Assembly: GCF_964355755.1 (NCBI RefSeq)
Contig: NC_092675.1
Location: 8,278,312-8,342,311 of the forward strand
DNA: 64,000 nucleotides
From: Antedon mediterranea
Taxonomy: Eukaryota > Echinodermata > Crinoidea > Comatulida > Antedonidae
Direction of reading: 5' to 3'
Position 1 is the stretch's first letter, and the number at the start of each line of letters is the position of its first letter. Under the pieces are notes generated by a model. The model did not search any database. It was not told the origin of the DNA and was given only the letters and a program-made list of their open reading frames with translations. Positions 3,531-63,408 of the stretch are shown here, one piece after another. Made by a program: the position numbers and the translations under genes.

Positions 3531-3566
3531 GTATTAAAATGAAATATTTGGTACAAAAAAGAAAAG

Positions 3567-13397: not shown

Positions 13398-14012
13398 ATG
13401 CGGGTATGACTATGATTTCTCATATCTCAAAAACTATTTCTACGTCGTCTTTTCACTTACGAAACATCCAAAGGATTCGAAACTTTATTAATGAGGCAGC
13501 AGCTAAACAACTTGTTCATGCTTTTGTCACTTCACGACTGGATATGGGAAACTCATTGCATGCTATATGGGCTACCACAAAAACAACTCCACAGGCTTCA
13601 GCTAATTCAAAATACAGCGGCACGAGTTGTTAAAGAACTACCAAGATATGCACACATATCAAATACCTTGGAAACTTTGCATTGACTTCCTGTTAGGTAC
13701 CGCATTGTTTTTAAAATATTACTCTTTGTTTTTAAGTCTATTAATGGCATGGCTCTTGAATATATTTCTGACATGCTTAGGATGTATGTTCCCAGACGGA
13801 ATCTGCGTTCTAGTGATACGCTGCTTCTACATCAACCAAAGTCTCACCACTCATGGGGAGACAGAGCTTTCACCGTTACTGCTCCTCGTCTATGGAATGC
13901 TCTACCGAGCTCTATCAGATTTTGCAAAACTGTTGATACTTTTAAAAAATTATTAAAAACACATTTATTCATTAAGGCATATGGAAATCATGAGGTTTCT
14001 TTAAAGTTGAGC
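13395..14012 (+). mobile_element. LINE 3' fragment nested in the Ty3/gypsy element
   Basis: Plus-strand reading frames encode the C-terminal part of a CR1/L2-like reverse transcriptase: 'FHLRNIQRIRN', 'LLYGLPQKQLHRLQLIQN', 'VPRRNLRSSDTLLL', 'APRLWNALPSSIRF' and 'TFKKLLKTHLF', spread over two frames (13,491-13,685 and 13,749-14,021). It interrupts the retrotransposon exactly between gag and protease; the missing protease N-terminus suggests that local sequence was lost at insertion. It resembles the LINE fragment in FB1. Confidence 0.85.
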
Positions 14013-14789
14013 AGGAGGTGAATGCCTACTACTCGATCGATTTCGATGTCGACTTGTGCTGCGACTTTGATATCTGTTGTGCCGTCGGTCAGATTTCAAG
14101 GAATTAACTTGTGTGGACAGTTGTTGAAACTGTTTTTGCAGGTTTTCAAGGGTCGTAGACAAGGCTGTATTGTCCGTGTGCACTTGTTGGCGCAGTTGCA
14201 GTTACAGAGACTTCAATAATTTTGTCAGCCAATGATGTCAAACTTCCCAGGTCCAACTCATCCTTGGTTGAAGCTAGGATAAGCTGTACATTAGTTGGGA
14301 GGCGACTTAAGAATAGTTGTTTCATAATTGAAGATTCGAGTGGCCTGTCGACTAAGAGTTGTAACATCCGTCGGTATAATTGCGACGGTTTCCTATCCCC
14401 AACTCCTCGGCCGTCAGGAGTTGGCGGAGGCGCTGTTGGTCGGAGTCAGTTTTCCGACGTATTAAGGTATCTTTCAAGTTCACATACCTGTTATCAGTAG
14501 GCGGGTTGAGTAGATCCCGAACTTCCTGCGCAATTTCAGGTTGCAATGATCCGACTAAGTAAGCGTATTTTGTAGCATCTACTGTAATCCCACGCGTTGT
14601 GAACTGTGCTTCCACTTGGGTGAACCACAATATCGGATCATTGGGCCAGTATGGAGGCAGTTTCAACGCTACAGAAGAAATTGGCCTGTTGACGGTTGCT
14701 GCGTCATGAGCGGGCACCACAGGTTGTTCCTGGTGCTGGGGTTGTGCTGGAGGTTGCGGTAGCTGTCGTTGTTGCTATTGTTCTTCCAT
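14013..14789 (-). pseudogene. Ty3/gypsy gag remnant
   Basis: The probable start codon is at 14789-14787 on the minus strand. It is followed within five codons by a TAG where glutamine codons dominate, so the frame is already closed. The capsid region is clear (LPPYWPNDPILWFTQVEAQF, 'TKYAYLVGSL', 'ADKIIEV'), in two overlapping frames (14,720-14,352 and 14,367-14,146) separated by a one-base shift near 14,390. A Ser/Arg-rich tail ends at 14,001-14,020 next to the nested LINE fragment; no zinc knuckle follows. Confidence 0.85.
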
Positions 14790-18295: not shown

Positions 18296-18353
18296 ATGGC
18301 CATCCTCAAAATATTTGTTTTGGTAATATTCTGTGTTTTTTCGGTTGTCAATG
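18296..18353 (+). CDS. RPTP exon 1: signal peptide
   Basis: ATG GCC opens a 19-residue hydrophobic leader (MAILKIFVLVIFCVFSVVN). The donor AATG|GTAAGT leaves phase 1, the phase used by nearly all extracellular module exons of this gene. Confidence 0.85.
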
Positions 18354-21300
18354 GTAAGTTGTTTTATTATTAGTATAAGCATCAGGTTACCGTGTAGTGT
18401 TAGCTTAGCTTATTAGATACAGTATGAGTGGTAGACGAGGCGAATATGATAATGTCTTCCTTGACCCAAACAACATGTGCCTCTACTAGCCTACTAAGGT
18501 ACTCTGATTTCAGCTTTGGTATATTCTCTGTTGAACCAGGAAATAAACTCAAAATTGTAATCAACGTCGTTTTCAAATTAAAGCTCTAAATGTTGGATCT
18601 AGTTTAAAATATAAATGTGTGGTCAAAAACTACAATATTTGTTTTATTGTTAATGTTATAAATATAACATTTTGCATAAATTAAATCAAAATAGAATTAT
18701 ATATGTTTTTGGATATTACATTGAGTGTTAGGCCTATATAATCGTTTAATTATTCGATATTAAGACCCTGTAGCACCACTTTATATTGACATTTCTTATT
18801 TCACAAAATTCGTTCTGCTAAATCACTGTATATACATCTTTTATCACTGTTTATTTACAACATTGCAAAATGACCTGATGCAAAACCTTGTAACCAGGGA
18901 AGAGTGTACTTTCATCTGCTGTTACTATGATTCCATATATAGATGAATCTACATGTCTATCATGAAAACAATTTAAAACATATAGTTTAAAATGTCATTA
19001 GTGAAATTCATGTCGAAGAAATACTATTATTGCAGAAATTGATTTTTTTATATACTTTTTATCGTGCAATAACACAAACAAATGTGATTTTTCAGAACAC
19101 AATTGTTTTACATGCTCATATTTATTCTTTGATGCTACATGAGGTTTTGCTACATGCACAATTTTGAAACCAAAATCAGTGTGAAATCCTAGAAAAGGTC
19201 ACCAAAACCATGACAAAACCTTGTATGCCATTTTAAAATATAAAATAATCCAAAATACGTATTAACAACAAAATTGTATTCATTATATTTTATCAAAAAC
19301 TGGGGTATTTTTACAATTCATTATTAATTTACAACACATAGGCCTATACAAAAAACATAAGACAAAGATTTTGTGTCCTGTAAATTTTGTGAGGTAATAG
19401 GTATATGGTAAAGATGAGAAAATCTTGAAGAAAAAAAATAATAAACTGTTATCATTCTGTTATTTGAACTTGGTGTAGATGGATTACTGTCTTTTGTATT
19501 ACTTTGGCTTCACATTACACTTACAGTATTTAAATCTGATATTCGATGCAGCACTTACACTATTTATATACTGTATCCTCATCCAGATGATAATATTGTA
19601 CACAAAATTATTATTTTTTTTTTATATAAAGAGAATGTTTTTTACATTTGTTTAAAGGTAATATTGCTGATCAAACATGTTTTACTAGTAAACCTGTTCG
19701 CTCACTTGGTCCCAAAGATGATGGTGCTTTTGTTGGTAGCTATATTGAGTATGTAGAAGATCCACAAACACTCAACGTAACATTGGGGCGGATACTGGAT
19801 ACTGGAGGTGGTGCTATCATACAAAAAGCAGATTCAGAACCATATGAAAGACATTTTAAAAACAAGCGCTATGTTTACAGGGAACTTTTGTCAGTAGAAA
19901 CTGGCACTCACAGAGTTGGTGCTTTCTTTTGTAATGTGACCGGGTTGAGAAATCAAACGTCACCATCATACATTCCTGTAATTATATTAGCAAAGGACGG
20001 TTAGTCTTTTTAAAATCCATTGATTGACATACCATCATAATTGTAATGAGATATAGTTCATTAATTGTAAACTAGTATTTTTTAACATACGTGTCAAGAC
20101 AGTTTTGTGAAACTGCCAGCTAGACCGGGACTTAGACTTATAATGTTTAATAATAATTGTAATACTAATTGTAATAATAATTGTAATTACATGTTATTGG
20201 CAAGAGTATCAAGTAATGTGACACTCACCCATTAAAAAATAGCATATTATTCAAGGCTGTGTTCGGACGTAAAATCAGTTTACATGTGTAACTTTACATG
20301 TGTAATTAGTGATCATTCGGACGATGAACAATTTACACGTGTAAAGGTCATATTTCATGCATCTCTTTACACTATTAAGGTCAAATTGCTCCTTATCTTG
20401 CGGTTAATCAGCTTGCGGTTTAAGGTGTAATTGAAAAATCCACCTCATGAGGTGGATTTTTGAAACAGCAAGTTTACCTCAAAATTTACACCACACGCGA
20501 CCATTACACGTGTAAATTTGTTCCGTCCGAACGGGCTCAAAGTGTTCACAACCAATTTGTATAGCATACAGTAACACAAGTCCTTTAGATTATTTTCTAT
20601 GTGTACAGTATATACTTTTTTTTTTCTATTATATTTTAGTGATAATCAGTAAAAATGATTAAAAAACTCGTAGTAATTGTTTTTGCAGCATATATAAAAC
20701 CTGAAAGGCAAACACAGACAGTCAGTTTTGGGGAAACTGCTACAATACAGATGACTTTAACGGAAGGTGATGCAGTTAACCTGAGATGGCGACTCAATGG
20801 AAATGTTATTGACATTTGGTCTGGTTCCAGCGATATCACAATTCCATATGTCACAAAAGACGACATTGGTATATATGAATGCTACCTAAATGACAGAAGA
20901 GACGAAAGTAAACATGCCATTGTAAGACTTATTGTACGAGGTATGTATTAAATTAATGAAGTTGTTTCACATTCTATTATATGGCTCTCATCTAAATTAT
21001 TAACACAATAAAATATGTCTTTGGTTGTTATTCTTCCTGACTAATGTTTTTCTTTTCATATTATTAGACTACAGTAGACTTCAATATTCATATTCTTGTG
21101 TGGAAAGAATCATATCGTATCTATCATACATCGTATTACTAAATTTGATCTAATCACCAACCATAATGAAAATCTGGTACATTTTTTCTACTACCAATTA
21201 TGTTTCCAGTTGACTGATTACAACATTTTTGGAGTACAGTACTTTAATACTTAAGACTATTTCCATCAAAGGTTACATAAATCATCATTAAAGCATTGTG

Positions 21301-24300
21301 ATACATTTCTTAATTTTCATAATTTATTCATTCATGTTTTTAATACTTTTTGCAGGTTGCTCAGCCTCTCATTATGGTACTGATTGTCAGAACTTCTGTC
21401 CTACATGTTATAATGGTGGTGTGTGTGATGATGTCTCTGGACTCTGTGTATGTCCACCAGGATTCAAAGGAGAAGACTGTAGTGAAGGTATAGAAAAATA
21501 CATGTGTCATTGATTAATAATGGTATTTTTAAAATTTGGTACCAAATAATATAATAGGGAGGTTTCGCAACCTTACGAATACGATAACGAAAACCGATAC
21601 CTCATACATTTGTGAAACTTTTGAGCTGATCCTCATTTCATATTCCTAAAGCGTATTCGTGTTGACGAATATCACCAGTCATATTCGTAACTAAAAAACG
21701 AGTATAGTTTTTGATCTATTTTGCACATTTTGCATTTGAATCGGGAATGATTCATGATTATAATATAATTATAGATTTATTGAAAGTAATTTACTAAAGT
21801 AATTTACTAAAATGCCAAGTAAATTTTGATAAATAGCAGTTTTTAAAGTCCTCACTCGCTTTGATGTTACGTTAGGCCTAGGCAGCCAAGCACCAAGCAA
21901 CACGTACTTGCGCTTCGCTCAAATTTACCGCAGTCATATTTTGGACGCGCCTCGATATTTCGTTGCCATGCGAAACAGATTTTTTTATGGCTTACGAAAA
22001 CGAATACGTGTGCGTGACGTATCCGTTTTCGTTATCGTATTCGTAAGATTGCGAAACCTCTCTATATTTTTTTGGATTGGCAACAATCTGCCCAACTAGT
22101 GCACTGTGTCACTTTCACAGTCCAAATACACTTGTTTGTTATTTGAAATAAATTTTGGAAAACCCACTCACCAATAGTACAGAGCAACATGAAACCTGTA
22201 AGTAATTAATATAAACAATTTATATTTGGTTTTATATTTTTATATAAGTGTGGAATCTCTTGGTTTTCGAGATTTAGATGCCTATGTTTGTTTGTTCCTC
22301 TATAATCTCTTTGAATTCATACAGGCTGAATTGTAGTTGTTGGCCAGACCAGTTTATACATTAATATTAATGATTGTTCAGATAGCAATTGCATTTTTAT
22401 AACACTTTTGTTAACATTTTATTATACCATATTTTTCTATGTATTTTTCTAAATTTGTTAAATGTCGGTTTTATTGTATCGTTGAAGTTGACAGGGGCTG
22501 GTCAAGCACATCACAAGATGACAGTTTTATACTTTTGCTTTTCCGCTACTCCCCTGTTATACTTATATGTTTGTTTTTTTTTTGCTATGTAGAAAGATTG
22601 ACAATAAAATACAATTCAGCCCACACTTGATATTATTTTGACGTTTAAAACTCTCACAGTATATGCTCTATTACAAATATTTTTGTAAAATCGTGACCTC
22701 ATGTTTTTTGCTGTGGTGGACATTTATTAGGATCGATTGTAGAAAATTTATTTATCTTAATTTTCTGGACCAGATCAGCTTTCTTTCTTCCATTAGTATT
22801 GTCAAATTTAAATCCTTAAGTCTGTACTCATATTTCTTAAATCGCTAACCAATATAGTTGATCTCTGTTTGGTCACAAACAAGGGAGACCAATAACTACC
22901 ACCATACTCAAGAGACGGTCTTATTATAGACCTATACAGACACATATATCCTTTGCTAATGTTTAAAAGATCTAAAAATAATGGTACTGTATACTTACTG
23001 TATTACACTACAGTATTATATTAACATTTTTATACCTATTACAATTATCAATGATGTTTCAAAAAATGTCCTGTTTCTGAGGGTATCTAGAAAACTCAGA
23101 TCTCAGATTTATCTGAGATTTCTTGATCTAGAAAACTCAGATATCTGACTTTTCTAGATCTAGAAAACTCAGTTATCAAGATCTGACTTTTCAGATCACC
23201 AAATGGATCATTCCATTATTATCAGAGGGTAGCTTGTTTGAAATACTACAGTATTATACGTTTTCTTACTAGGCCCTAGTAATAAAAATGATTGTAACTT
23301 GTAGTAGCAGCCTACAACTTAAATCATAAAGAAATACAGTATACACCTTTTAAAATGTAGTCTTGACATTTAGGCCTAGCCTTTAGGCCTAGCCTTTAGG
23401 CCTAGCCTTTAGGCCTAGCCTTTAGGCCTAGCCTTTAGGCCTAGCCTTTAGGCCTAGCCTTTAGGCCTAGCCTTTAGGCCTAGCCTTTAGGCCTAGCCTT
23501 TAGGCCTAGCCTTTAGGCCTAGCCTTTAGGCCTAGCCTTTAGGCCTAGCTAAGCAAACTCAATTCAAGGCTCAACGTGTCGGCGCTATCGTGATGTATCG
23601 CGAAGAGTAGGCTTGGTCCTAACCCCTGGTTTTAACGGTAACATGCACTGTATTTTCTTTATGATTTCAGCCATATGCCGCTTCTACATGTCACAATATT
23701 AGTAAGAAAACGTACACAGTAATCAGTTTTAATAATATTTTAGTATTTCAAATGACCTACCTTCTGATTAATAATGGAATGATTCAAATCATTTGATGAT
23801 CTGAGTTTTCTTGTTCCATTCTGGTACTAGAAAACTCAGATATATTTGAGACCTGAGTTTTCTAGATCTGAGTTTTCTAGACACCCTGTTTCTGATAATA
23901 AAAAACTAAAATTTATTGTGAAAATGGTATCTCAATTTACTAATACTATATTTAAAAAAAAAGTATTATTAAAATGTAAAATTTGTTTAATGATAGGTTG
24001 TGGAAATAACCATTGGGGAAGAACATGTGTCAATCTGTGTAGCAGTCGCAATCCTGGTTGTCCGGATCAAATGGGATGTGTTCCTGATCCATTAGGATGC
24101 TCTTGTATGGCTGGTTATAAAGATCTTGACTGCAAAGGAAGTAAGTAATATAATGCATTATTTCTTTAGGTTGGCAATAATACAATTTAAATAATATTTT
24201 TCTTTACGCTTTGCAAATGAGATTAAATTTGTAACTCTGTAGCAATTCTATTATACATTTACAAAAGGGAATAATTCAGTAATCACGCATTACGTGGTAT

Positions 24301-27300
24301 AGGTGTCATGTCAAATGTTCCAATTTTATCATTACTATATTTTGTAATAAAACATATGTGGCTACACTTTTTTCCAACTGCTCCCCTTGATGAAATAGTA
24401 ATATTTTTCACAATTAAAAGCAGATTTTTTCTAGATTTGTGTTTTTTTAAACAGCCATACAACCATAATTATATCTATTAAATAATGTATATTTTATTGT
24501 GGATAATTTTCTGACCTTGTGGAAAATAAATACAGTAGCAAGGATCTTATATTCTCACTTTACAAAATGTAATGTATAGTAGAATAAGCTCCAATATATT
24601 AACATTTTTTTATTTTAACAATAGTACAACATTAATATTTTGAGTGAATTATTGTAGGAGATCCATTGTTCAAATATTGTTACATATAGTACAACATGTA
24701 GTATTTTATACCATTTTAACAAGAATTCTATTCCACTTTAAAATATATATGCTTCATGTAGTACTAGTATGTACTGTTTAAAAAAAAAGTTATATTTGCT
24801 GAATTTAACCAACTAGATGGTACGCTCGCTTCGCTCGCGTACCATCTAGGTCGTGCCCACAGATGGTTCTCGAATACTATACACAGTAATTTCAGCGTCA
24901 CAAAACTGGCGATTTCAAATGTACGTAGGCCTACCGCAGGACTATAATACATTGTCATTTACAGAAACGGATAAATAGACACGATGATTTATGTAGTCAA
25001 CTAAAATTAGCACCCTGGGAATTACTTCCGAAGGAGAAACTTATCACAAAATGAGTCCAAATCAAATTTGGACTCATTTAAAGAAACCCAATGTGTGTTT
25101 TGTATGGGCTTTTTTATATTAGGGTTGAGGGATGGGAAAGCGGATAGGTACAAAGAGGAACAATTTTTAAATATATTCTTTATCCACTCAGTAACGAAAT
25201 ATTTGTTTCGTGTTTTATATGTAGGCCTATAAATAATATACCTCTAAATACAGTAAAACATTTGCGATTTAATACTTTGTTAAAACTGTCACTGTCATAA
25301 TCGATTGAAATATTAAAGTACATGTCACGATACACCACTACGACGTTTATTTTATTGGTAATTATTAATCAATTCAAACGTTGAGAAGGAACTGTCAGTA
25401 TAAAGTTTATTTGTATATAATAATGTGTTTATATATCTAACAGTAGATCCTATCCACAATCTCAGTAATAAAGTTTATCTGTATATATTTTTATATTACA
25501 TCTAACAGTACGAACATTCACAGTAAGAAATTCAAATGAGGACTAAAAATAGTTAAAAAATAGGTATTTACAGTATTGTCAAAGTATTGCAAGTTTATTC
25601 TCAAAGGGCCCATATCTTTACCTACCGTATGTGTTAAACCAAGGGCTCATAAATTTACCTACTTGTGTTAAACCAAACTCTGGCAGACTGAGAGATTGGG
25701 ATGTTCCATTCATCGCAAATCAATACATTTGTATAATCATATATTAAATCTATCAAAATAGTATTTTTTAAAGAAAATCGGCCTGTCTTCAACATTATGA
25801 TGGTGTACTCTAGCTGTTCAACCGGTTTTCAGCTATTAAAAACAATTATCGTAGGAGGAGATAGGAAAATGCGAAGCCTCCTCGCATTTTTGTGGCGGGT
25901 ATTTTTCAAGATGGACATCCATTAGACAGTGTATACCACCATCGGAAAACACCCCTATTTGGGGCAAATCGTTGAACCTAAATTCGTTTTAATCGTCAAT
26001 AACTAATTATCTAACTTAATTTAATAAGTAAACAGGGTTACATCAGGTGGTTAAAATCAGTACCGAAAGTACGAACCAACTTTATATACCATCGAGTAAA
26101 AATTCTAGAAGTAAGGCGCGATTTACCGAATTTTGCCCTTACGTAAATTTATATATAGATACAATTATTGCACATTAACATAGAGTTTTCATTTTTCGTA
26201 ATGAAATGTTTTATTTTTTAAATACCACTTAAAACTTACAAACAGCAAAACAATTGTGGTTATCATATTTTCCACAGCCTGTGGAACAGGGTATTATGGA
26301 TCAACATGTAGTGAACAATGTCACTGTGCTCCTGGTGTGACATGTGATCCAAGCAGAGGCTGTCCAGATGGACCATGTGAGGCTGGATATTCTGGAACAA
26401 ACTGTCAAGGTTTTAAGACTTATTTTTTTATTGAAGTAAAATGTTATCTGTGATTGAACCATTCTCATTCATTTATGATAAAAAAATTTCAGACAAACTA
26501 TGCTTACCTAATTATAGACTTCAAACATCAACATCAAATATTTGTTATTTATATACAAAAATATTAAATGGACTGGTAGAGTATTTTTTGTGCCTTACCT
26601 GTGTATATACAGACAAAAGCCTTTGTCTACGAAGTGAGAGATGCAATATGGAAAATAACACAATGGCTCATTGGTATATATTCCCACTTAAGTTTGAGCT
26701 TCCCAGACTGTAAATAGAACTTTTAACTAAAAACTTATCTGTTTATCCAGGTAAAGCAGCACTTACAAAGTACCAACACCAATGTTATGTTGTTTAATAA
26801 TTATTGACCATAATTTATTAAAATGAAAGTGATAATTTTGATGTTACTTCAGTTTCTTCATGACATGCACTGAAATTGTGTCTGTTGTTAAATATTTTAT
26901 TTAGTTCCTGACAGTTGCACTAATGGACGGTATGGGGAGCTATGTAAGTACCAGTGTCATTGTGATGATGATGGACCATGTGACAGAAACACAGGAAGCT
27001 GTAGTGATAGAAAATGTAAACATCTTTGGATAGGATCTGATTGCCAACTTGGTAAGCAATGCTGTTATCAATTTCCATTTGAACGTTCAGATTTTGAATA
27101 TTGTTATAAAAGACAAAACCTGTACAATCCTGTTTAAAGACGTATTGTCGCCCTGAAAAAATAAATAATTTTGTTGTTGAATATGCCATTTTAATGTCAC
27201 ATAGGCCTAATAGTTGTCCACTTTGACCAAAAATTGGATAAAAAAAAATTTGTTACCTGAAAAAACGGTAATTTAAAGCAAAAAAACATTCAAATTGGCT

Positions 27301-57300: not shown

Positions 57301-60300
57301 TATATTGTAACTGTAACTACTAAATAATACTTTGATTTAAAATAAGCTCATTAGTTCAAATGTCTATTTCTACTCAAATGTATGTTTTCTTCTTAATATA
57401 GTTCCAAAACAACCAACGTTAAAAGTGGTGTCGACAACAGACTCAACTATTACAGTTGAGCTTTTCCCACTTGAAGATTTTATCTACATCAGGTTAGAAA
57501 AAAGGGAGCAATAAATATATATACATAAAAACTCTTTCAAAACCGGGATGATCTGAATACTGGAAACTATTTTACAATTACAATTTTCAAGGCTTCAAAT
57601 CATCTTATGCTTTACTATGTGAAATGCATTATGTAAATCAGCATTATGTTTGATTTTGAGTTGACTGTATATATTATTATGCAGTATAATACAGTACTGT
57701 ACCTTCTTCACCCCTGTTCAGGTGACAACCTCTGTTAAGGGGACACCTGTGAAATGAATGAGAGTCATTACAGGGCAGCACATACAGATTGAATTTGGTG
57801 CACTATTTCAGAATAATTAATCTTAAAGTGCAGTAGCTGTGTAACATGGCTACAAGTCACAGGCGATTGCAATGAATTAATTGAGTCTGCCAATGGTCTG
57901 TAGCACGCGTAGATGTTCCCTCTGTCTTGGACTTTGGACCCTTTTTAAAAACCGAAGATTTATCTGAATATACAGCATGCCTACTATACTCTCATTTAAA
58001 CTCAAATTGTAAATTTTACAATTTATTTCATACATATTCAATGCTAAATGTATTATGTGAAAAATTACAATTCAGATTTGTTTAAATATTAGTTTATTTT
58101 TCCTCTTCAGTAATTATGTAATACTTGTAGAAAAAGAAAGTAGTGCTAAACGTCGAAATGCGAAGGAAAAGCTAACACATAAAGATTCACCTGATAAGTA
58201 CATCAGTGCATCTTTTCCAAGAGATGAAGTGCCAGACCTTTTCATTATAGGAGATGGAAAAGTTCATAATGGTTATTACAATGCTCCCCTAAGCAAGGAC
58301 AACAAGTACTTTCTTTCTTTTAGAACTGATGATGCAATCGATGTAAGTTATATTTTTATACTGTTTAGAAAGAGTTTCATTGTTACTATATAATACATTT
58401 TGAAATATATACCTGGTAAGAGGTGAAATACAAGATTTGACATCCAAGAGAGAATGATATTTTTGTTAAGGGAATATATATTTCCCAAAGTGCAAGCTGA
58501 GAGAAATATATATTCCTGAGAGCAAAATATCATTCTTAAGGGTATGTCAAATCTTATATTTCACTGATATAAAAGGCAATCTGTTACATTATATAGCCAA
58601 CAACCAGTAGAATATTTGCTGGGTTGGCTAGCTAGGCCTCCTTTATGTAATAAGCCTGCCTAGGCATTGCATTCATCTTACCTTCCAAAGTATAAATGCA
58701 AAATAATTACTGATTAATGATTCCGTGGCAATAAAATATTCACTTAGGCCTACTACATTAACAGAAGAAATTCCATTAATAATTCTACACTTTACAGTAA
58801 TATAATGTATTATAGGCCTACTTTACAGTAATAATTAACAATTAGTTTTTTTCGAGCCGTATCACCGGATGTTCAGCTCGTGCTCATACCAGGTTACTAC
58901 CGTGAATTTTGACCAATCACAAACAGTCTTTCATTGCATCTATAGAGGGCGAATAACAAAATGAGGGCGCTGTGTATGCTGTATGTTTAAATAGTTTAGT
59001 TATTTTTGCAAACTTGCTTCATCTTCTTTCCAATGTTTTCAAAAGATATTTGTATTATATAATACATTGTTTATTGAAAGAAACTTTTTTTCAGGATGAA
59101 AGCCGCAGCGGAAAAGCAATTCAACGTAAGTGATAACATTTTGTTGATATATCAGGGAGAGTTAGACCACCACGATCAAATAATTCACGTTTTAGACTAT
59201 CTTTTGTTCCAAATGCTATTCATATTTTTAATTCGCGATTTAAGAGAAGTACCATACCTGTGCAGTATATTATAAATATTTTTGTGTAATTTGTTTTATA
59301 AGTATAATATGTTATATATGGTCTTTTTATATTTATGCCAAGGAAGACAATTTTCATAATGTAATTTTATTTATTTTATGACTAATAACATTTTATCTAT
59401 CTATCTATCTATTTTATATTTACCTTATTTTACAAAATAATGCTCCTCAATGTTTAATTGGTATATACAGTAGCGTGCAGTCTGGTTTTATGAATATACC
59501 AAGTTGTTTATACTGCATTTTGTACAGCAAGTACTTTTTTTAGCATTTTGTATTCCATAAGACACAATGAATGGCAGAGAAAATAATGCACTATGTAAAA
59601 AACAATGAGGCGTAAAGATACTGTATATACATAAACATTGAGGAAATATGTATACATTTCCTCCATGACATAAACACCACATGCACAGACAAATTTTTCT
59701 AAACCACCCCGTTATATACTGAAAATTTATTAATTGATTTTTACGATAAGATGAGAAAATATGTGAGAATGAGAAAAGTCACCCCAACCGAGATTCAAAA
59801 CCAGAATATATCATAAGTCTAATATGATTTTTATCATTTCATTCAACGATGTTATTTAATAATGATTACTATGTATATAAATTTCACATTAATTGATTCA
59901 ACAACAAACAAACATAGCAGTGTACACACATTGGACAAAAGTTGTAACAGTGTCTAAATTGTAAGCAAAATGATACCACTACACACTTTTAATTAGCATA
60001 CACATCTTGGAAATATGTTTTAATAATTTTAAACAAGAAATCATGAAAAATTACATTGATTTCCTTCATTCATATTCATCAATTTGGTATTAATTTCTCC
60101 ATGGTTATCTAAAGTTAGTTTTTGAAAAAAATAAGTGCACTCTTAAAAATGGCTGTACAGTATCTGCTTGGTTGTAATTTGTTATTTCATACAATAGTTA
60201 ACCAAAAAACACATGAATATTAAATATTTAATATGATTATTTTTTTACCTATTAGCTGGATCAAACGACACATCCATAGGCATGATTTTAGGAATATTGT

Positions 60301-63300
60301 TTGGTTTTATTGTGGCTGTTCTTGTTCTGGGTCTGGTCTGGTTTCTTAAATATAAAAGAAGGTAAAAAAATAAATTATATTATCAAATTCATTAATTTAT
60401 TTTAATTATTTATGTTTTGTTGATTCTAGGTAAGTTATTAAATCAACTTATATTTATGTGAGATCAGATTGATTGTTAAAATTAATATTTTTTTGTTGGT
60501 GATATAATGTTACATTACAATTAACATAAGTAGAAACATCTGACTTTATTTAAAGGAATTTTTAAAATAACTTTTTTTAAGGGAAAAAAATCCACCAAAA
60601 CCTATGCTTCCGATGTCAAAACTGAAAACAGGTATGTTATCATAAACCATGCTCAAAACATTAAATATACATCATGTTTTAAATAAAGTATTGGTAATAT
60701 TTGAAAAATATGACATGCAGTTGTAAGTAAGGAGAAAGATAAATAATCACATTAAATATACGTATGATAGGTATGATACATTTATATTTAATAAGATAAT
60801 AGGGAAAATTAAGAAGACTGCAAGGTCTTCTTAGGGCTAAGATTTTACATCAAAAAAGCATTGAAAAAAATGCAAGGATAAGCAACAGACTTTCCTAATT
60901 AATTTTATTATAGAAAGTAGACTACCTCATGTTCCATCAGAGGACACCATTGCTGATACCATAAACAGTTACACAAAGCCACCGTTAAAAGCAAAGCCAG
61001 AGAGTTCAAAGGCTACAAGAGTGCATCGACCTGTTAAAATAGAACATCTTGTAGCATATGTGAAAAAGAAGAGGATGGATAAAGAGGAAGGATTTCAAAA
61101 TGATTTTGAGGTATCGTATATTAGTACATCAATATTTTGAGTTAATTCTCATTGAAAAATATCCTTGCCATTTGATTGGTTACTTGTATATAACATTTCA
61201 TTCAGTATAAGCAACGTAATCATCTAGGTGTATAATAGTGTCAATTCAGATGGTTCATTCTCACAAAAAGTCTTCTAGTAATCCATCACCTTATTTGCCG
61301 TGCTATAAGGTAAAGGTATTTATATTTGTCCTCAAGCTTAACTGGAAACTGAGGAAATTCAGATTTGCCAGCAATACAGCGCCTACTAGATCAGCACTCG
61401 GGATACGATCCCCTACTCTTTGCAAATAGTGTACCAAGTTCTTTAACATGCACTATGTACACGGGACCAACGGCTTTACCTCCCATCCGAAGGACGAGGC
61501 AATGAGAGTAAAGCATCTTGCCTAAGGATACAGTTAGTATGGTTCAGATAGGTTCGAACCAATGCCTAATCTGATATTGTCATTACACCATCACTCCAAC
61601 ACCATATACTCCAGTATATACAGCACCCGCCGCGATTCCAGACTGTCTCCCATCCTCCGAACCGGGTCCAACATTGTTTAACTTTGATGGTCTGACGAGA
61701 ACCGGTGTTTCAACACTGTATGGCCGTATATAAAGATACCTATAAACTTCTATGGCTGTATAAATGCAGTAAAATGTTATAAAGTATATACCGTACATAA
61801 AGTTTCAGAGAGAACCAGCTGATAAATGGCAGTATTAAAAAACCAATCGATGCATTTTGATTTTTTTTTTGTTCAGTCTTTGCCGAATGAACAGATTCAC
61901 TCCTGGGATGTAGCTAAGAAATCTGAAAATAAAACAAAGAATCGTTATGGTAACATCGTTGCATGTAAGTTGAAATTAAGAAATATAGTAATAACCTATT
62001 CCAATAGGCGTGATGCTTCGGTTTTTTATTCTTTCTTATTTCTAATACCAGAATGTAATGTGTTTGTAATTTTGTTTTTTGTTTTACCTTAAGTGTAAAT
62101 ATAATAACTATTTACCTAATAGCTAATGTAAATATTACTGTAGTATAGCTACAGTAGATACACTAACATTCTCTGGAATACAGTGCTTCTTTAAATACTG
62201 TATTTCATTTTAATTTTATAAGTGCCCTAAGATTTTTTTTGGTATATGCCTACCTAAAAGTTTGTGACTATAATAAATAAACAAACAAATAGTACCATTT
62301 ACTGAAGTGAATAGAACTGTTTCACATGATATAATATAATGCTTAATATTTTCATTACTAATATTTGTTGGAATTGGAATAAATATATTTCTATGAATGG
62401 TGATGGATAAATACATTTTGCTTTTTAATTCAGGCGATAGTAGCTTCTAATATGGGTACTTCTCTTCTTCTCTTTGCTAATTATCTTGTAGATGATCATT
62501 GCCGTGTTGTTCTTGAACCTTTGCCTGGTGATCCACACTCAGATTATATCAATGCATGTTACATTGATGTAAGTCTCTTCTCTTTCCTAGAGAGTATTCT
62601 TTTTCAGGTCATGATCATGTCAAACTTATTCTACTAAAGTAATTAATTTTTTACTGGAATAATATTTTAGATTTTATTTCACGTTGAAGATTATGAGGCA
62701 ATTTCACTGCAGTAAACAATGTGTTTTTATGCCCAAGAGAGAGTCTTACTGATAAATATTTTACATAAACAGGTAAAAGATAGATACTGCAGTAGAATGA
62801 TTTTGGCATGATCCCTTACTATGTTCTGTAACTTTTATTTATGCATTTTCACTTGCATATAAGGTATGTATTATTAGTCATTTGTCATTTATACTATATG
62901 TGGAAAAATACCAAATTGTTTAAAGGAAAATCTAAATCCATAATTTGTAATATAATATAGCAACCAAAGAAATCAAAGTTGAGAAACAATTGAAGTATGT
63001 GTATGCTTACCAATATTCAATTCCTAAGTTTCTATACTATGGGCAAAAATAAACAACAAATTAATATTATTATATTATTATTTTTTAATACCTTATTCAT
63101 TTGTTTTATTATTGATTGAAAGAAAGAAAATAAATGTTTACGTTGAATTGAAAAAAAAAAATTGAAAAATTGAATTATGCAATGGTTTTGCTATTACCAA
63201 AACATACTAATAAAAACAAGATAAAGAGTCTAAAAAACTATTAATGTCAGTACATCCTCCTGAAATGTATGACAGAACCAATCGAAATACAATGTATAAT

Positions 63301-63408
63301 AACATACTTTAATCAGTATGGCATAGTTGAAAAATCATGTTGAACTTATTGTTGTATTTATTGTTTTGTAGGGCTACAAACAGAAAGTCGCTTACATTGC
63401 TACTCAAG
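18296..63408 (+). CDS. Tie-like receptor-type protein tyrosine phosphatase (30 exons in window, 3' end outside)
   Basis: The reading frame runs through 30 exons with matching GT-AG sites and phases, 5,473 coding bases, about 1,824 residues. Domains in order: signal peptide (1-19), Ig1 (20-133), Ig2 (134-217), four 8-Cys EGF modules (218-402), Ig3 (403-498), ten FN3 domains (about 499-1521), a receptor-phosphatase membrane-proximal module (1522-1639), one transmembrane helix (about 1647-1670), a basic juxtamembrane segment and the start of a PTP domain (from about 1692). From Ig1 to the first FN3 the order and motifs follow Tie1/Tie2, which carry three EGF modules, three FN3 domains and a kinase. 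The predicted role is a cell-surface receptor whose cytoplasmic side removes phosphate from tyrosine. The catalytic HCxxGxxR loop lies beyond the window, so activity cannot be judged. Start choice: the first ATG of a signal-peptide exon, context caaATGg. Confidence 0.88.
18354..19657 (+). other. Intron 1
   Basis: AT-rich, 1.3 kb, phase 1. No mobile element recognised. Confidence 0.6.
19658..19999 (+). CDS. RPTP exon 2: Ig-like domain 1
   Basis: 114 residues, phase 1 on both sides. Cysteines in DQTCF and AFFCN are spaced as in an Ig fold. The layout (LGRILD, basic KNKRYVYRELL stretch, then VGAFFCNV) is like the first Ig domain of Tie receptors. N-glycosylation sequons include NVT and NQT. Confidence 0.8.
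20256..20536. mobile_element. MITE with GTTCGGAC termini in intron 2
   Basis: The left end GGCTGTGTTCGGACG and right end CGTCCGAACGGGC are inverted repeats, continued inward by TTTACA(C/T)GTGTAA palindromes. The flanks TCAA on both sides may be a target duplication. A perfect inner palindrome AAAATCCACCTCATGAGGTGGATTTTT lies at about 20,434-20,462. Non-coding; superfamily not assigned. Confidence 0.65.
20689..20940 (+). CDS. RPTP exon 3: Ig-like domain 2
   Basis: 84 residues, phase 1 on both sides. It has the WRLNG strand and DIGIYECYL at the end of an Ig fold, but the first canonical cysteine position reads TIQMTL, so the usual disulfide cannot form. The exit motif RLIVRG followed by C matches the Ig2-EGF1 junction of Tie receptors. 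Confidence 0.8.
21356..21487 (+). CDS. RPTP exon 4: EGF module 1
   Basis: 44 residues with eight cysteines in the Tie-type EGF arrangement: HYGTDC, NGGVC, then CVCPPGFKGEDC. Phase 1 on both sides. Confidence 0.88.
21554..22065. mobile_element. MITE with about 40-bp terminal inverted repeats in intron 4
   Basis: The left end ATAGGGAGGTTTCGCAACCT continues through 'tacgaatacgataacgaaaac'; the right end is its reverse complement with few mismatches. About 512 bp, non-coding. The target duplication is unclear. Confidence 0.8.
22600..22980 (-). pseudogene. Degraded LINE reverse transcriptase tail
   Basis: On the minus strand the segment 22,960-22,860 encodes RPSLEYGGSYWSP, the typical post-RT RPxLEYxxxxWxP motif of CR1/Jockey-type LINEs. 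Further down (about 22,720-22,690) RGH-like residues fit the same C-terminal region after small frame changes. Heavily decayed. Confidence 0.5.
23081..23886. mobile_element. Mutator-like MITE (9-bp target duplication) in intron 4
   Basis: Termini GGGTATCTAGAAAACTCAGA (left) and its complement ending TCTAGACACCC (right) are inverted repeats. The flanks TGTTTCTGA (23,072-23,080 and 23,887-23,895) are a perfect 9-bp duplication, the size made by Mutator-like transposases. The subterminal regions repeat CTAGAAAACTCAGAT several times on both sides. It encloses a minisatellite. Confidence 0.82.
23371..23549 (+). repeat. 13-bp minisatellite (TAGGCCTAGCCTT)n
   Basis: About 13.8 nearly identical copies in a row, inside the Mutator-like MITE. 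The unit contains the palindrome AGGCCT. Confidence 0.95.
23997..24140 (+). CDS. RPTP exon 5: EGF module 2
   Basis: 48 residues, eight cysteines. HWGRTC and VPDPLGCSCMAGY correspond closely to the second EGF of Tie receptors (their FGRTC and PDPxGCSC). Acceptor GATAG, donor GGAA|GTAAGT, phase 1. Confidence 0.9.
24813..26159 (-). mobile_element. Non-autonomous Helitron, copy A (intron 5)
   Basis: On the minus strand it begins with TCTATATATAAATTTACG and ends with a hairpin (AGATGGTACGC / GCGTACCATCT around a GC-rich loop) and CTAG at 24,813-24,816. It lies between a host A (5') and T (3') without target duplication, the hallmark of Helitrons. 1,347 bp, no Rep/helicase coding. It matches copy B at 39,113-40,496 along its length. 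Confidence 0.88.
26278..26409 (+). CDS. RPTP exon 6: EGF module 3
   Basis: 44 residues, eight cysteines (CGTGYYGSTC, CHCAPGVTC, GYSGTNC), equivalent to the third Tie EGF. Phase 1 on both sides. Confidence 0.88.
26905..27051 (+). CDS. RPTP exon 7: EGF module 4
   Basis: 49 residues, eight cysteines (NGRYGELC, CHCDDDGPC, GSDC). Tie receptors have three such modules, so this is an additional one, perhaps a duplicate of module 3, with which it shares the CHC motif. Phase 1. Confidence 0.88.
27134..27438. mobile_element. MITE with TTAAAGAYGYATTGTC termini, intact copy (intron 7)
   Basis: The left end TTAAAGACGTATTGTCGCCC and the right end, complement of TTAAAGATGCATTGTCCCCC, are inverted repeats. 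A second copy at 47,030-52,144 is split by Helitrons. Confidence 0.75.
27559..27846 (+). CDS. RPTP exon 8: Ig-like domain 3
   Basis: 96 residues, phase 1. Typical C2-type pattern: TITCIVQANPIP, then AEDDVFKCQVQ. It sits after the EGF block, as in Tie receptors. Confidence 0.85.
28330..28653 (+). CDS. RPTP exon 9: FN3 domain 1
   Basis: 108 residues, phase 1. The core is VSWNEW, GDGPVIGYYVCYK, then EYEFGVAAIRPG. The GDGPI-like turn and the loop before the last strand parallel the first FN3 of Tie receptors. This is the last module with clear Tie-specific likeness. Confidence 0.85.
28917..28987 (+). CDS. RPTP exon 10: FN3 domain 2, first part
   Basis: Encodes PVIVPSNVQVSVV and EIEVQWQ. Donor CAG|GTAATA gives phase 0, splitting the FN3 domain after its tryptophan strand. 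Confidence 0.75.
29157..29784. mobile_element. MITE with TTTACACCGCC termini and many CCCGGG sites
   Basis: The left end CCCTTTTACACCGCC and right end GGCGGTGTAAA are inverted repeats. The inner part has repeated ACCCGGG motifs in both orientations. GC-rich compared with the surrounding intron, non-coding, target duplication not seen. Confidence 0.6.
29919..33762. mobile_element. Fold-back element FB2 (long inverted repeat)
   Basis: The left arm from 29,919 (AGTCCAGGAGTATTAGAC...) is repeated inverted at the right end, finishing at 33,762. The arms contain tandem units of about 300 bp: two on the left (from about 30,130 and 30,443), three on the right (from about 32,690, 32,960 and 33,230). 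Each carries a version of TTTTGACCTTTGACCC. The left arm is interrupted by a younger MITE. The loop, about 31,545-32,500, shows no gene. Confidence 0.8.
30881..31541. mobile_element. Harbinger-like MITE nested in FB2
   Basis: The termini GACCCCATTTACACTTACG and CGAAAGTGTAAATGGGGTC are inverted repeats, and the similarity continues inward through GGCCGGCCCTGGG stretches. TTA at 30,878-30,880 and 31,542-31,544 is a 3-bp target duplication, the size and sequence preferred by PIF/Harbinger transposases. 661 bp, non-coding. Confidence 0.85.
33985..34222 (+). CDS. RPTP exon 11: FN3 domain 2, second part
   Basis: Phase 0 in, phase 1 out. Encodes PDRCNSLSKYTLRY, LDPCTAYDVRV and NSAGDGPFSD. It carries the type A cysteine pair (C before the C strand and C in L.PC). 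Confidence 0.82.
34707..35012 (+). CDS. RPTP exon 12: FN3 domain 3
   Basis: 102 residues, phase 1. Core VMWEAPDYEHCQIEHYKL, a second cysteine in LCGEN, then LEPYSRYIIEI. This is the type B cysteine pattern. Confidence 0.85.
35787..37190 (-). pseudogene. FEN1/XPG-like (PIN-fold) nuclease gene, minus-strand copy
   Basis: Minus-strand coding sequence traced from about 37,190 to the stop at 35,787. The N-terminal block has VIAYVVDLMALIRT and RVDIVTDAY with a following K..ER, like the first acidic site and FD-G region of FEN1. The middle has NGENKTRLIEL, then an EEA-T motif, SGDID and TGNDYNSAF.RKGK, matching the order of acidic motifs in FEN/XPG nucleases. The tail is acidic (DFSDCSDVSDLED). Damage: frame breaks near 36,525 and 36,405, and tyrosine replaces aspartate in EEADT. 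I know related multi-copy proteins only as uncharacterised; function is inferred. Confidence 0.6.
37294..38289 (+). pseudogene. FEN1/XPG-like nuclease gene, inverted plus-strand partial copy
   Basis: This is the mirror copy in the right arm of FB3 and lacks the N-terminal third, which exists only in the loop on the other strand. ORFs 37,338-37,532 and 37,516-38,289 overlap in different frames. It keeps QEEADT but reads SGDIG and TGNEY where the other copy has SGDID and TGNDY, so two acidic positions of the presumed active site differ. Each copy has kept a motif the other lost. Confidence 0.6.
38970..40580 (+). repeat. Tandem duplication of about 130 bp, second unit interrupted by Helitron B
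   Basis: Unit 1 starts at 38,972 (TTAACCATAATATTAATAATTTTCG...). Unit 2 begins at 39,104 with TTAACCATAA, is cut by the Helitron, and resumes at 40,497 with TATTAATAATTTTCG. Unit 1 therefore shows the unoccupied target of the Helitron. Confidence 0.8.
39113..40496 (+). mobile_element. Non-autonomous Helitron, copy B (intron 12)
   Basis: Starts TCTATATATAAATTTACG at 39,113 and ends with the hairpin AGATGGTACGC...GCGTACCATCT plus CTAG at 40,493-40,496. The host A before and T after fit Helitron insertion. 1,384 bp, no protein coding, homologous to copy A in reverse orientation. Confidence 0.9.
40583..42067 (-). mobile_element. Helitron2-like tandem unit c1
   Basis: The minus-strand 3' end is at 40,583: GCGGATAACTAACTCGTCAAAGTGACGAGTTTCATGTCTAG. 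The 5' side begins abruptly with TTCTTCTTTCC right behind the CTAG of unit c2, lacking the 5' hairpin. Non-coding; it has repeated TGACGTCA words and runs of GCGCGC. Confidence 0.8.
42068..43663 (-). mobile_element. Helitron2-like tandem unit c2
   Basis: Same 3' hairpin and CTAG (42,068-42,071) as c1. Its 5' end carries the hairpin AGTTATCCGC..GCGGATAACT (43,637-43,661) and abuts the CTAG of c3 with a two-base spacer. About 1.6 kb, close in sequence to c1 and c3. Confidence 0.82.
43664..45322 (-). mobile_element. Helitron2-like tandem unit c3
   Basis: The 3' end CTAG is at 43,664-43,667. The 5' side has two successive hairpins with the same GTTATCCGC stem but different loops (45,221-45,246 and 45,289-45,320), a duplicated 5' terminus. 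It is outermost in this array; ordinary intron sequence resumes at about 45,327. Confidence 0.82.
45496..45804 (+). CDS. RPTP exon 13: FN3 domain 4
   Basis: 103 residues, phase 1. SCLKRRGEITNYIVQV and IHPCETVTPHV show the type A cysteine arrangement; two further cysteines (AACTLVGCG) are special to this domain. Confidence 0.85.
46124..46447 (+). CDS. RPTP exon 14: FN3 domain 5
   Basis: 108 residues, phase 1. VTWSVPEVVYCPIVLYQIMY with a second cysteine in DGCQKE and LPPFSTYEVVV: type B pattern. Confidence 0.85.
46618..46990 (-). mobile_element. Decayed Helitron2-like copy
   Basis: On the minus strand the 3' hairpin AACTCGTCATTGTGACGAGTT (46,628-46,648 region) is preserved, followed by a weakened CTA end. 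The segment near 46,920-46,975 matches the 'gcgctctattRaatg..gaaagaga.aaaaat' block of the family. Most of the body is lost. Confidence 0.5.
47338..48997 (+). mobile_element. Helitron2-like unit c4, nested in c6
   Basis: Two successive 5' hairpins AGTTATCCGCTTAGTAGCGGATAACT (47,338-47,363 and 47,414-47,439), a 1.5-kb body, and a 3' end with the CGTCAAAGTGACG hairpin and CTAG at 48,994-48,997. Confidence 0.82.
48998..50506 (+). mobile_element. Helitron2-like unit c5, tandem to c4
   Basis: Begins TTCTTCTTTCC directly after the CTAG of c4, as c1 does after c2, and ends with the 3' hairpin and CTAG at 50,503-50,506. Nearly identical to c4, so the duplication is young. Confidence 0.82.
52281..52568 (+). 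CDS. RPTP exon 15: FN3 domain 6
   Basis: 96 residues, phase 1. FTWEEIPCGSRQGSIDRY and LSPCTTYDFKV: type A cysteine pair. Confidence 0.85.
52816..53109 (+). CDS. RPTP exon 16: FN3 domain 7
   Basis: 98 residues, phase 1. FEWDRPRPLACEIVKYYI, second cysteine in KDMCHA, LEPYSEYVVTI: type B pair. Confidence 0.85.
53798..54091 (+). CDS. RPTP exon 17: FN3 domain 8
   Basis: 98 residues, phase 1. FKWTEIECGSRRGFIRGYKF resembles type A, but the second cysteine is replaced (LKPFTEYIVRV), leaving one unpaired cysteine. Confidence 0.85.
54805..55034 (+). CDS. RPTP exon 18: FN3 domain 9, first part
   Basis: FLIEWSRPEPANGIVISYQL then LTPNTNYTIQ. Donor CAG|GTATGA, phase 0. No cysteines, unlike the preceding array. 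Confidence 0.85.
55579..55648 (+). CDS. RPTP exon 19: FN3 domain 9, last strand
   Basis: Phase 0 in: AAAFTSVGRGPLSD, the usual FN3 ending. Two donors lie three bases apart (GTAGTA after 55,645 and GTAAGT after 55,648). The second is closer to consensus and is used here; the first would change G-K to E at the junction. Confidence 0.75.
55754..55965 (-). mobile_element. SINE, copy 2 (intron 19)
   Basis: Shares the core 'gggtaaccccctact...tactaggttcttaaagtg.acat' and 'ccttatcgagaagactcgttctaccaccaga' with the SINE at 7805. The tRNA-like head is eroded into the adjacent minisatellite. Confidence 0.65.
55959..56397 (+). repeat. About 19-bp minisatellite (CGCCACTCACTCACCCAAC)n
   Basis: Some 20 or more imperfect copies, much richer in C than the surrounding intron, starting inside the end of SINE copy 2. 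The long ORF through it is a by-product of the repeat. Confidence 0.9.
56503..56609 (+). CDS. RPTP exon 20: FN3 domain 10, first part
   Basis: PGPVSNFQINNTEEKSV then VSWGKPKNPNGEILKYT. Donor ACA|GTGAGT, phase 0. Confidence 0.83.
56917..57130 (+). CDS. RPTP exon 21: FN3 domain 10, second part
   Basis: Phase 0 in. LKYRILEKLF, IEDLEPATKYAIEVYASTEAG, ends TDTPP. Phase 1 out. Confidence 0.83.
57402..57492 (+). CDS. RPTP exon 22: membrane-proximal module, part 1
   Basis: VPKQPTLKVV, ITVELFPLED, IYI. Donor ATCAG|GTTAGA, phase 2. It starts the juxtamembrane FN3-like module found in several receptor phosphatases. Confidence 0.75.
58111..58342 (+). CDS. RPTP exon 23: membrane-proximal module, part 2
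   Basis: NYVILVEKE, a basic AKRRNAKEK stretch, YISASFP, LFIIGDGKVHNGYYNAPL and YFLSFRT. The GDG..ynGyyNapL motif is characteristic of the ectodomain segment next to the membrane in receptor phosphatases. The basic stretch could be a processing site, as such modules are cleaved in other family members; this is an inference. Confidence 0.85.
58423..58564. repeat. Long imperfect palindrome in intron 23
   Basis: GTGAAATACAAGATTTGACAT on the left pairs with ATGTCAAATCTTATATTTCAC on the right, with inner arms (AGAATGATATTTT / AAAATATCATTCT, AATATATATTTC / GAAATATATATT) pairing too. Probably a small fold-back MITE. Confidence 0.7.
59095..59125 (+). CDS. RPTP exon 24: short extracellular linker
   Basis: 31 bases encoding DESRSGKAIQ between the membrane-proximal module and the transmembrane exon. 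Supported by consensus splice sites (TTTCAG, C|GTAAGT) and phases (0 in, 1 out), but short. Confidence 0.65.
59150..59420 (+). pseudogene. LINE 3' fragment with (TCTA)n tail
   Basis: In one frame from 59,156 the sequence reads VRPPRSNNSRFRLSFVPNA, with AIHIFNSRFKRS next: the C-terminal motif of CR1-like LINE proteins. It is followed by an untranslated stretch and a TCTA microsatellite near 59,396. 5'-truncated. Confidence 0.55.
60256..60361 (+). CDS. RPTP exon 25: transmembrane helix
   Basis: SIGMILGILFGFIVAVLVLG and following LVWFLKYKRR: about 24 hydrophobic residues ended by a basic stop-transfer cluster. Sequon NDTS just outside. Phase 1 in, 2 out. Confidence 0.9.
60582..60631 (+). CDS. 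RPTP exon 26: juxtamembrane segment
   Basis: 50 bases encoding EKNPPKPMLPMSKLKT, a Pro/Lys-rich cytoplasmic stretch. Phase 2 in, 1 out, fitting both neighbours. Confidence 0.75.
60914..61110 (+). CDS. RPTP exon 27: juxtamembrane and PTP domain entry
   Basis: SRLPHVPSEDTIADTI, then RPVKIEHLVAYVKKKR and EEGFQNDFE. The RPV.i..l..yv stretch is the canonical lead-in to receptor phosphatase domain 1. Donor GAG|GTATCG, phase 0. Confidence 0.85.
61370..61600 (-). mobile_element. SINE, copy 3 (intron 27)
   Basis: Has 'cccctactctttgcaaatagtgtaccaagttctttaacatgcac', the same core as the other two SINE copies. On the minus strand it carries GGTTCGAACC (about 61,551-61,560), a B-box-like element. Confidence 0.65.
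61877..61964 (+). CDS. RPTP exon 28: PTP domain, KNRY loop
   Basis: SLPNEQIHSWDVAKKSENK then KNRYGNIVA. KNRY is the conserved phosphotyrosine-recognition loop. Phase 0 in, 1 out. Confidence 0.9.
62492..62568 (+). CDS. RPTP exon 29: PTP domain core
   Basis: With the split codon it reads YDHCRVVLEPLPGDPHSDYI, then NACYID: the conserved YDHxRV and DYINAxYI segment of PTP domains. Phase 1 in, 0 out. Confidence 0.92.
63372..63408 (+). CDS. RPTP exon 30: PTP domain, last exon in window
   Basis: GYKQKVAYIATQ corresponds to the GY....YIATQGP motif; donor CAAG|GTAAGA. The WPD loop and the catalytic cysteine follow outside the window. Confidence 0.9.

Follow-up and report, generated by a model that had tools for sequence, protein, structure and literature searches.

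Receptor kinases are usually regarded as one family and receptor phosphatases as another, each with ligands of its own. A locus of the crinoid Antedon mediterranea raises the question whether one gene can join a Tie-type ectodomain to a receptor tyrosine phosphatase and, if so, where such a receptor belongs and what it may do. The stretch of DNA analyzed here, hereafter the window, comprises 64,000 nucleotides (G000:C6:8278312-8342311) of a 354 Mb genome, and its positions are counted from its first letter.

An open chain from head to phosphatase

Rebuilt exon by exon, the gene consists of 42 exons that form one open chain of 2308 residues with no stop inside. The window holds exons 1-30, from the start codon at 18296 to the end of the third exon of the first phosphatase domain (D1) at 63408. 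AG precedes each of these exons after exon 1, GT follows all 30, and the phases join. The remaining 12 exons lie downstream of the window, in 30 kb of flanking DNA of the same genome (G000:C6:8343822-8354980), and encode the rest of D1, all of the second phosphatase domain (D2) and the stop. The domain order is signal peptide, Ig1, Ig2, EGF1-4, Ig3, 11 FN3 domains (the last one membrane-proximal), transmembrane helix, juxtamembrane segment, PTP D1 and PTP D2. The exons in the window, with the evidence for each in brackets, are:

18296..18353, +, exon 1: start codon and signal peptide MAILKIFVLVIFCVFSVVN (donor score 5.8)
19658..19999, +, exon 2: Ig-like domain 1 (TIE2 alignment covers its end only)
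20689..20940, +, exon 3: Ig-like domain 2, LIVR at its end (Pfam, TIE2 alignment)
21356..21487, +, exon 4: EGF-like 1, CVCPPGF (TIE2 alignment, motif)
23997..24140, +, exon 5: EGF-like 2, PDPLGCSC (TIE2 alignment, motif)
26278..26409, +, exon 6: EGF-like 3 (TIE2 alignment)
26905..27051, +, exon 7: EGF-like 4, one beyond the number in TIE2 (exon chain)
27559..27846, +, exon 8: Ig-like domain 3 (by position; without Pfam match)
28330..28653, +, exon 9: FN3-1, NGDGPV turn (P0138 starts here, Met 28341)
28917..28987, +, exon 10: FN3-2, first part (joined to exon 11 in P0138)
33985..34222, +, exon 11: FN3-2, second part (exon chain, P0138)
34707..35012, +, exon 12: FN3-3 (exon chain, P0138)
45496..45804, +, exon 13: FN3-4 (exon chain, P0138)
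46124..46447, +, exon 14: FN3-5 (exon chain, P0138)
52281..52568, +, exon 15: FN3-6 (exon chain, P0138)
52816..53109, +, exon 16: FN3-7 (exon chain, P0138)
53798..54091, +, exon 17: FN3-8 (exon chain, P0138)
54805..55034, +, exon 18: FN3-9, first part (P0138)
55579..55648, +, exon 19: FN3-9, second part (exon chain, P0138)
56503..56609, +, exon 20: FN3-10, first part (Anneissia P0069, P0138)
56917..57130, +, exon 21: FN3-10, second part (P0138)
57402..57492, +, exon 22: membrane-proximal FN3, part a (Pfam, P0138)
58111..58342, +, exon 23: membrane-proximal FN3, part b, FIIGDGKVHNGYYNAPL (Pfam Fn3_PTPRU, P0138)
59095..59125, +, exon 24: 31 bases preceding the membrane helix (exon chain; sequence in P0138)
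60256..60361, +, exon 25: transmembrane helix (exon chain, P0138)
60582..60631, +, exon 26: juxtamembrane 1 (exon chain, P0138)
60914..61110, +, exon 27: juxtamembrane 2 to start of PTP D1 (exon chain, P0138)
61877..61964, +, exon 28: PTP D1, KNRY (Pfam, D1 match)
62492..62568, +, exon 29: PTP D1, DYINA (Pfam, D1 match)
63372..63408, +, exon 30: PTP D1 (exon chain)

Pfam recognized nine fn3 stretches, two PTP stretches (Y_phosphatase, E=1.4e-139) and, among the Ig domains, Ig2 alone, in a count made before FN3-10 was completed; the other domains were assigned from exon borders, with the start of Ig1 and the whole of Ig3 identified by position and weak similarity alone. The missing first half of FN3-10 was considered as a gene border or an exon loss, which was rejected when the half was located at 56503-56609 via the Anneissia protein P0069. 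An earlier note on this DNA had proposed 30 phase-compatible exons from 18296 to 63408, and our rebuilt exons have identical limits and are all in phase without a stop. The Tie motifs that it listed (LIVRxC, CxCPPGF, PDPxGCSC and the GDGP turn) were all recovered in the predicted chain, as LIVRGC at residue 214, CVCPPGF at 248, PDPLGCSC at 291 and NGDGPV at 529. The ending in a helix and a phosphatase was likewise confirmed, but the note covered part of D1 and no D2.

A 19-base tandem array of 22.6 copies (55961-56397), located in the intron between FN3-9 and FN3-10 and close to the small exon 20, is open in three + frames. The intron between FN3-3 and FN3-4 holds a large palindrome (35200-38875), probably a mobile element, whose main arms are 92-98% complementary and contain mirrored open frames. 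At 23369-23549, the 13-base array TTTAGGCCTAGCC is present in 13.9 copies with 100% matches. Frames that by eye resemble pieces of retroelement reverse transcriptase/integrase occur on the - strand at 3537-4595 and 10440-14774 and, within an intron of the D2-coding region, at G000:C6:8350717-8352197.

Residues 503-2308 of the chain are identical letter for letter to P0138 (1806 aa), a named Antedon mediterranea protein annotated as ‘receptor-type tyrosine-protein phosphatase mu-like’. The P0138 model opens only within FN3-1, at an internal Met, and omits exons 1-8, and therewith both signal peptide and head. This start would suit two adjacent genes that share a frame by chance, of which the first (exons 1-8) would encode a Tie-like head protein, soluble or short, and the second, beginning with exon 9, an FN3-PTP receptor; the heads without PTP found in some crinoid relatives would suit them as well. 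P0138 as annotated would, however, be a membrane receptor without a signal peptide. A simple hydrophobicity scan gave exon 1 a good score as a signal-peptide start but found no in-phase start exon of this kind in the intron of 483 bases that precedes FN3-1. Moreover, the relative P0072 is continuous from Ig2 via Ig3 to FN3-1, head and PTP occur together in one protein in P0035, P0139 and others, and the same order is present at a second locus of the same genome. We consider two genes highly unlikely. As predicted from the exon chain, one gene very probably encodes a type I receptor tyrosine phosphatase that comprises the Tie-type head, the FN3 stalk, the R2B-like FN3 domain, the helix, an intact D1 and a degenerate D2.

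The nearest crinoid heads are those of P0071 and P0072, both proteins without a PTP domain, and Anneissia P0069 ends after FN3-9 in a membrane helix and a short tail. Given this ending of P0069, the query gene or its relatives may also make a phosphatase-less form.

A Tie-type head and an R2B-like phosphatase

When the 586-residue ectodomain was compared with all solved structures, TIE2 was matched at E=3.1e-39 and the best non-Tie sequence at 4.8e-05. The TIE2 alignment spans the end of Ig1, Ig2 and EGF1-3; in it, five residues inserted in the TIE2 Ig2, which we take to carry angiopoietin contacts, have no counterpart in the crinoid. Across 30 aligned proteins, the LIVR-x-C pattern and many of the EGF cysteines are fully or almost fully conserved. 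Because both the TIE2 match and the Y_phosphatase match (1.4e-139) are this strong, a chance likeness is excluded.

The fold search was carried out with a predicted model of P0072 (mean pLDDT 83.5, pTM 0.47), a relative standing in for the query chain that is 83% identical to it over the head alone and 68% over 543 columns. TIE2 structure 4k0v ranked first (3.6e-20) and TIE2 structure 2gy5 fourth, with a low global TM of 0.3, as expected since the chain is flexible; most other rows are FN3 proteins, including receptor phosphatases. This model-based result supports, without proving, a Tie identity at the domain level. The head might instead represent a generic Ig/EGF arrangement of the MEGF or scavenger-receptor type: such EGF modules are common to many proteins, scavenger-receptor and other EGF proteins match weakly, and EGF-rich long frames elsewhere in the genome match too. 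We consider this extremely unlikely in view of the lead of TIE2 over the next match, about 34 orders of magnitude in a linear Ig2-EGF1-EGF2-EGF3 register, its first rank in the fold search despite the low TM, and the reptile TIE1 heads that appear in the same homology search and tree. The Tie-like head read by the earlier note is thus upheld by the gap between 3e-39 and 5e-5. The ectodomain has the Ig-Ig-EGF-Ig-FN3 order alignable to TIE2, and the cytoplasmic tyrosine kinase of the TIE class is replaced by a PTP, with no kinase match within the gene.

The phosphatase half was compared with vertebrate receptor phosphatases. D1 alone scores 319 bits against PTPRT, 318 against PTPRK and 290 against PTPRM versus 217 against PTPRB; with D1 and D2 scored together, the R2A phosphatases PTPRS and LAR lead along with PTPRA. 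D1 retains KNRY, DYINA, WPD and HCSAGVGRTG, including the signature of active phosphatases (KNRY, WPD, HCxAGxGR[ST]G), and is putatively active. In D2, WPS and a degenerate HCKNGMERCG are found, and D2 is probably inactive. Two features of R2B phosphatases are present, namely a membrane-proximal Fn3_PTPRU domain (Pfam, 29.3 bits versus a cut-off of 24.7) and a tandem D1-D2 with D1 closest to R2B; the N-terminal MAM domain of this class gave no Pfam match at E up to 0.1. By contrast, neither the FN3-only ectodomain nor the single PTP domain of the R3 class is seen, as the chain has two Y_phosphatase stretches. By its sequence, the phosphatase half is R2B/LAR-like and not VE-PTP-like. Kinship with VE-PTP (R3), a phosphatase that the earlier note brought up for comparison, is rejected on the D1 scores, the tandem PTP domains and Fn3_PTPRU.

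A tree of 87 D1 domains, built with a quick method, groups the query with the Tie-headed P0035 (brittle star) and P0139 (starfish; 61% D1 identity) at an SH-aLRT of 88, and places it in no starred set. These three fall within a 61-row main deuterostome group (support 92) that contains 42 of the 50 Tie-headed rows together with vertebrate PTPRK and PTPRM; the main mollusc group lies outside it. The other eight Tie-headed rows, several on long branches, are placed elsewhere, as is one vertebrate row. At least 17 gains or losses of the head are required on this tree.

Tie-type heads on kinases and phosphatases

Three homology searches were performed, the third being read from its best 120 of 2605 matches. 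Among the proteins listed, 151 have a Tie-type head, of which 56 carry a PTP, 30 a tyrosine kinase and 65 neither, with catalytic domains assigned at a similarity cut of 1e-10 (P0085 counts as neither despite its database PTP label). The proteins of other species are database predictions. The Tie-headed phosphatases listed come from all five echinoderm classes (crinoids, asteroids, ophiuroids, echinoids and holothurians), from hemichordates and from amphioxus, with one from a barnacle on a long branch; the searched active-site pattern is absent in 11 of the 56, in two of these by one Cys only. In Patiria, Asterias, Amphiura, Diadema and Branchiostoma, Tie-headed kinases are predicted alongside Tie-headed phosphatases, while no kinase was found among the crinoid head proteins in the matches listed. 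In the amphioxus proteins P0022, P0028, P0057 and P0061, a Tie-type head shares one chain, kinase or phosphatase, with Fibrinogen_C, the fold type of the receptor-binding part of angiopoietin. In our best explanation, which we hold with high confidence, the query is a predicted member of a family of receptor phosphatases with Tie-type heads that spans echinoderms, hemichordates and amphioxus. No earlier description of a Tie-headed phosphatase was found in the literature searched; the sea urchin phosphatome (PMC3045532) could hold one.

Pairs of kinases and phosphatases within one species or genus show how far their ectodomains agree. Of the 34 fifty-column windows that compare Asterias amurensis P0025 (kinase) with P0021 (phosphatase) up to column 1700, 27 show 80-96% identity; beyond this column, identity is less than 30%, with the break just before the membrane helix. 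The P0025 kinase domain scores 272 bits against TIE2 versus 235 against RET, leaving aside PDB row 9p9u, which is labelled EGFR and tops both kinase searches. Amphioxus P0057 (kinase) and P0022 (phosphatase), which come from contigs of equal length, are 75% identical over 1371 columns, helix included, and amphioxus pairs diverge after the helix; the P0057 kinase is accompanied by a SAM domain, and the kinase of its sister protein P0047 is FGFR-like. Patiria P0102 and P0149 have a common F5/8C-Tie-head-FN3 ectodomain (54% over 719 columns). Of 27 kinases set against phosphatases from their own genus, 11 scored below 300 bits, so that not every kinase has a close partner.

A tree of 73 heads (51 PTP, 22 kinase), built with a careful method, contains 12 changes of enzyme type, 10 of them forced by supported branches, and rejects a single kinase clade (AU p=8.8e-101). 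Four changes fall in asteroids and four in amphioxus. Eight are left without amphioxus, 10 without P0031, P0028, P0050 and P0036, and five without amphioxus, P0031, P0036, P0119 and P0120; all of these counts come from predicted proteins and give no direction.

This mixing of enzyme types could also arise if gene predictions had fused neighbors. Tie-headed kinases and phosphatases often come from contigs of equal length and hence probably from one contig, and the predicted Tie-headed kinase P0031 of Amphiura filiformis is visibly odd, with a reverse transcriptase and an endonuclease at its N-end; it is likely a partly chimeric model. Yet P0025 and P0021 stay alike along the ectodomain and diverge immediately ahead of the helix without any domain left over, the amphioxus pairs break after the helix, the changes recur in two groups and persist without the four proteins P0031, P0028, P0050 and P0036, and Pfam finds the phosphatase-type Fn3_PTPRU in two starfish kinases, P0025 among them. 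Fused predictions therefore appear a rather improbable source of the pattern. Our preferred explanation, to which we give high confidence as a whole, is that the ectodomain behaves as a cassette that would repeatedly have been transferred among genes for phosphatases, kinases and non-catalytic receptors. The domain shuffling suggested earlier, with a Tie-type head placed on a receptor phosphatase, agrees with the one-chain model, the TIE2 match, the relatives and the head tree; that the family is widespread, with heads on both enzyme types, goes beyond the reach of the earlier note.

In the Antedon genome, a second gene leading from a Tie head to a PTP was found at C6:26354011-26367395, within about 13 kb of raw DNA on one strand, comprising head (Ig1 by eye), FN3, D1 and part of D2. 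Among the 55 Ig2-type head matches listed, 18 have a listed PTP match before the next head within 60 kb (at 6.4-46.7 kb), 37 have neither enzyme among the matches listed, and 0 of the 55 has a listed kinase match within 60 kb downstream. Any listed PTP match within 60 kb was seen on the same strand for 25 of the 55 and on the opposite strand for 5 of the 55, the like-for-like partner of this control being 25 and not 18. The head, PTP and kinase lists hold best candidates (the gene at C6:26354011-26367395 is not among the 55), and some Ig2-type matches have no listed EGF exon beside them, so that neither the 37 nor the zero kinases is firm. Among the TIE-type kinase matches listed, none adjoins a head by eye; one exon, at C6:15052238, is 72% identical to the query kinase but is without a listed head in its vicinity. 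Tie-type head exons lie in groups at C5:7.6-8.1 Mb, C5:25.2-25.3 Mb, C6:26.2-26.4 Mb, C6:30.4-30.5 Mb, C3:13.1-13.2 Mb and C8:15.76-15.79 Mb, some on C5 and C6 with a PTP and some on C3 and C8 without a catalytic match among those listed.

Tandem Tie-headed paralogues were sought within 304 kb around the gene and none was found; a profile scan of the same 304 kb gave four weak EGF-type matches (E 2e-4 to 2e-3) at genome positions 8180282 and 8261916-8263220. About 35 kb past the last exon, on the + strand, lies a gene resembling a receptor kinase, with exons for a helix and a kinase domain (G000:C6:8389956-8393490; L014, L015). It has DFR and HLNICAEN where DFG and HRDLAARN are expected and is a probable pseudokinase by its motifs. 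As this sole kinase-like neighbor has no detectable head or FN3, a mirror kinase beside the query gene was rejected.

Possible function and known systems

What the sequences establish is the predicted architecture, the catalytic motifs, the spread of the family and, among predicted proteins, the occurrence of common ectodomains on kinases as well as phosphatases; ligand, cell type, substrates and activity of the query receptor we infer. The head and FN3 stalk would bind an extracellular or cell-surface partner, which would place an active D1 beside phosphotyrosine substrates, while D2 would serve regulation. In animals with both forms, one ligand may be read with opposite catalytic effect.

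The earlier note held that the receptor may antagonize a Tie kinase of the same animal. Direct antagonism through a common angiopoietin-like ligand would fit the species in which both headed enzymes coexist. A Tie-2-like kinase and a PTPRF-like phosphatase, called counterbalancing, are both reported on Asterias rubens coelomocytes; the passages of PMC13409769 concerned do not state a Tie head on the phosphatase or a common ectodomain. In the crinoid, however, the proposal is at odds with the zero of 55 listed heads with a listed kinase within 60 kb, the lack of a head beside the listed TIE-type kinase matches, the lack of a kinase among the crinoid head proteins listed, and an Ig2 without the TIE2 insert. 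A shared ligand and antagonism are only weakly suggested for this animal, and we deem the direct form unlikely. Since no listed head stands beside a listed kinase here, adhesion-type or ligand-gated dephosphorylation is more likely, and the headed non-catalytic receptors P0071, P0072 and P0069 are possible decoys.

The MAM domain takes part in the homophilic adhesion of R2B phosphatases. An adhesion-type phosphatase like PTPRM or PTPRK, whose ectodomain would bind homophilically or to a cell surface with no soluble ligand, is a possibility that we rate somewhat below even. It agrees with the R2B-like phosphatase half and the membrane-proximal FN3, and a diversified recognition at the cell surface would fit the large number of head copies that stand in tandem in the genome; against it stand the lack of a MAM domain in Pfam and the Tie-type N-terminal modules. 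For the family as a whole we somewhat favor the reading that the Tie ectodomain of ambulacrarians and amphioxus is an interchangeable cassette, passed on by repeated exon exchange around the helix, so that kinases (TIE-like in a starfish, FGFR-like in amphioxus) and phosphatases would be mirror receptors that answer the same cue with opposite sign, and that crinoids kept it on phosphatases and catalytically empty receptors.

If true, an ectodomain that both enzymes have in common and can exchange would amount to paired activating and inhibitory receptors in catalytic form. Starfish P0025/P0021 and amphioxus P0057/P0022 are ready test pairs for whether one ligand yields opposite outputs. The family also bears on the origin of the vertebrate Tie/VE-PTP system and of R2B phosphatases, since databases name such proteins PTPRM-like or PTPRF-like.

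Four known systems can be compared. PTPRB/VE-PTP is likewise an FN3-rich receptor phosphatase, but R3 receptors such as PTPRB combine FN3 repeats with one PTP domain (PMC5336234), and the query D1 scores far lower against PTPRB. The sea urchin SpTie1/2 (Stevens et al. 2010, cited by PMC12113024 and PMC13409769) resembles the query as a Tie receptor of an invertebrate deuterostome, but is described there as a receptor tyrosine kinase, whereas the query is a phosphatase. With TIE2/TEK and TIE1, the query shares the Ig-Ig-EGF-Ig-FN3 order, the EGF cysteine pattern, the LIVR-x-C junction and PDPxGCSC, and it differs in a tandem phosphatase in place of the kinase, four EGF domains versus three, about eleven FN3 domains and an Ig2 without the insert. 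With the R2B phosphatases PTPRK/M/T/U, it shares the best D1 matches, the tandem D1-D2 and the membrane-proximal Fn3_PTPRU; where these have a MAM domain, the query has, by Pfam, none, and carries a Tie-type head and many more FN3 domains.
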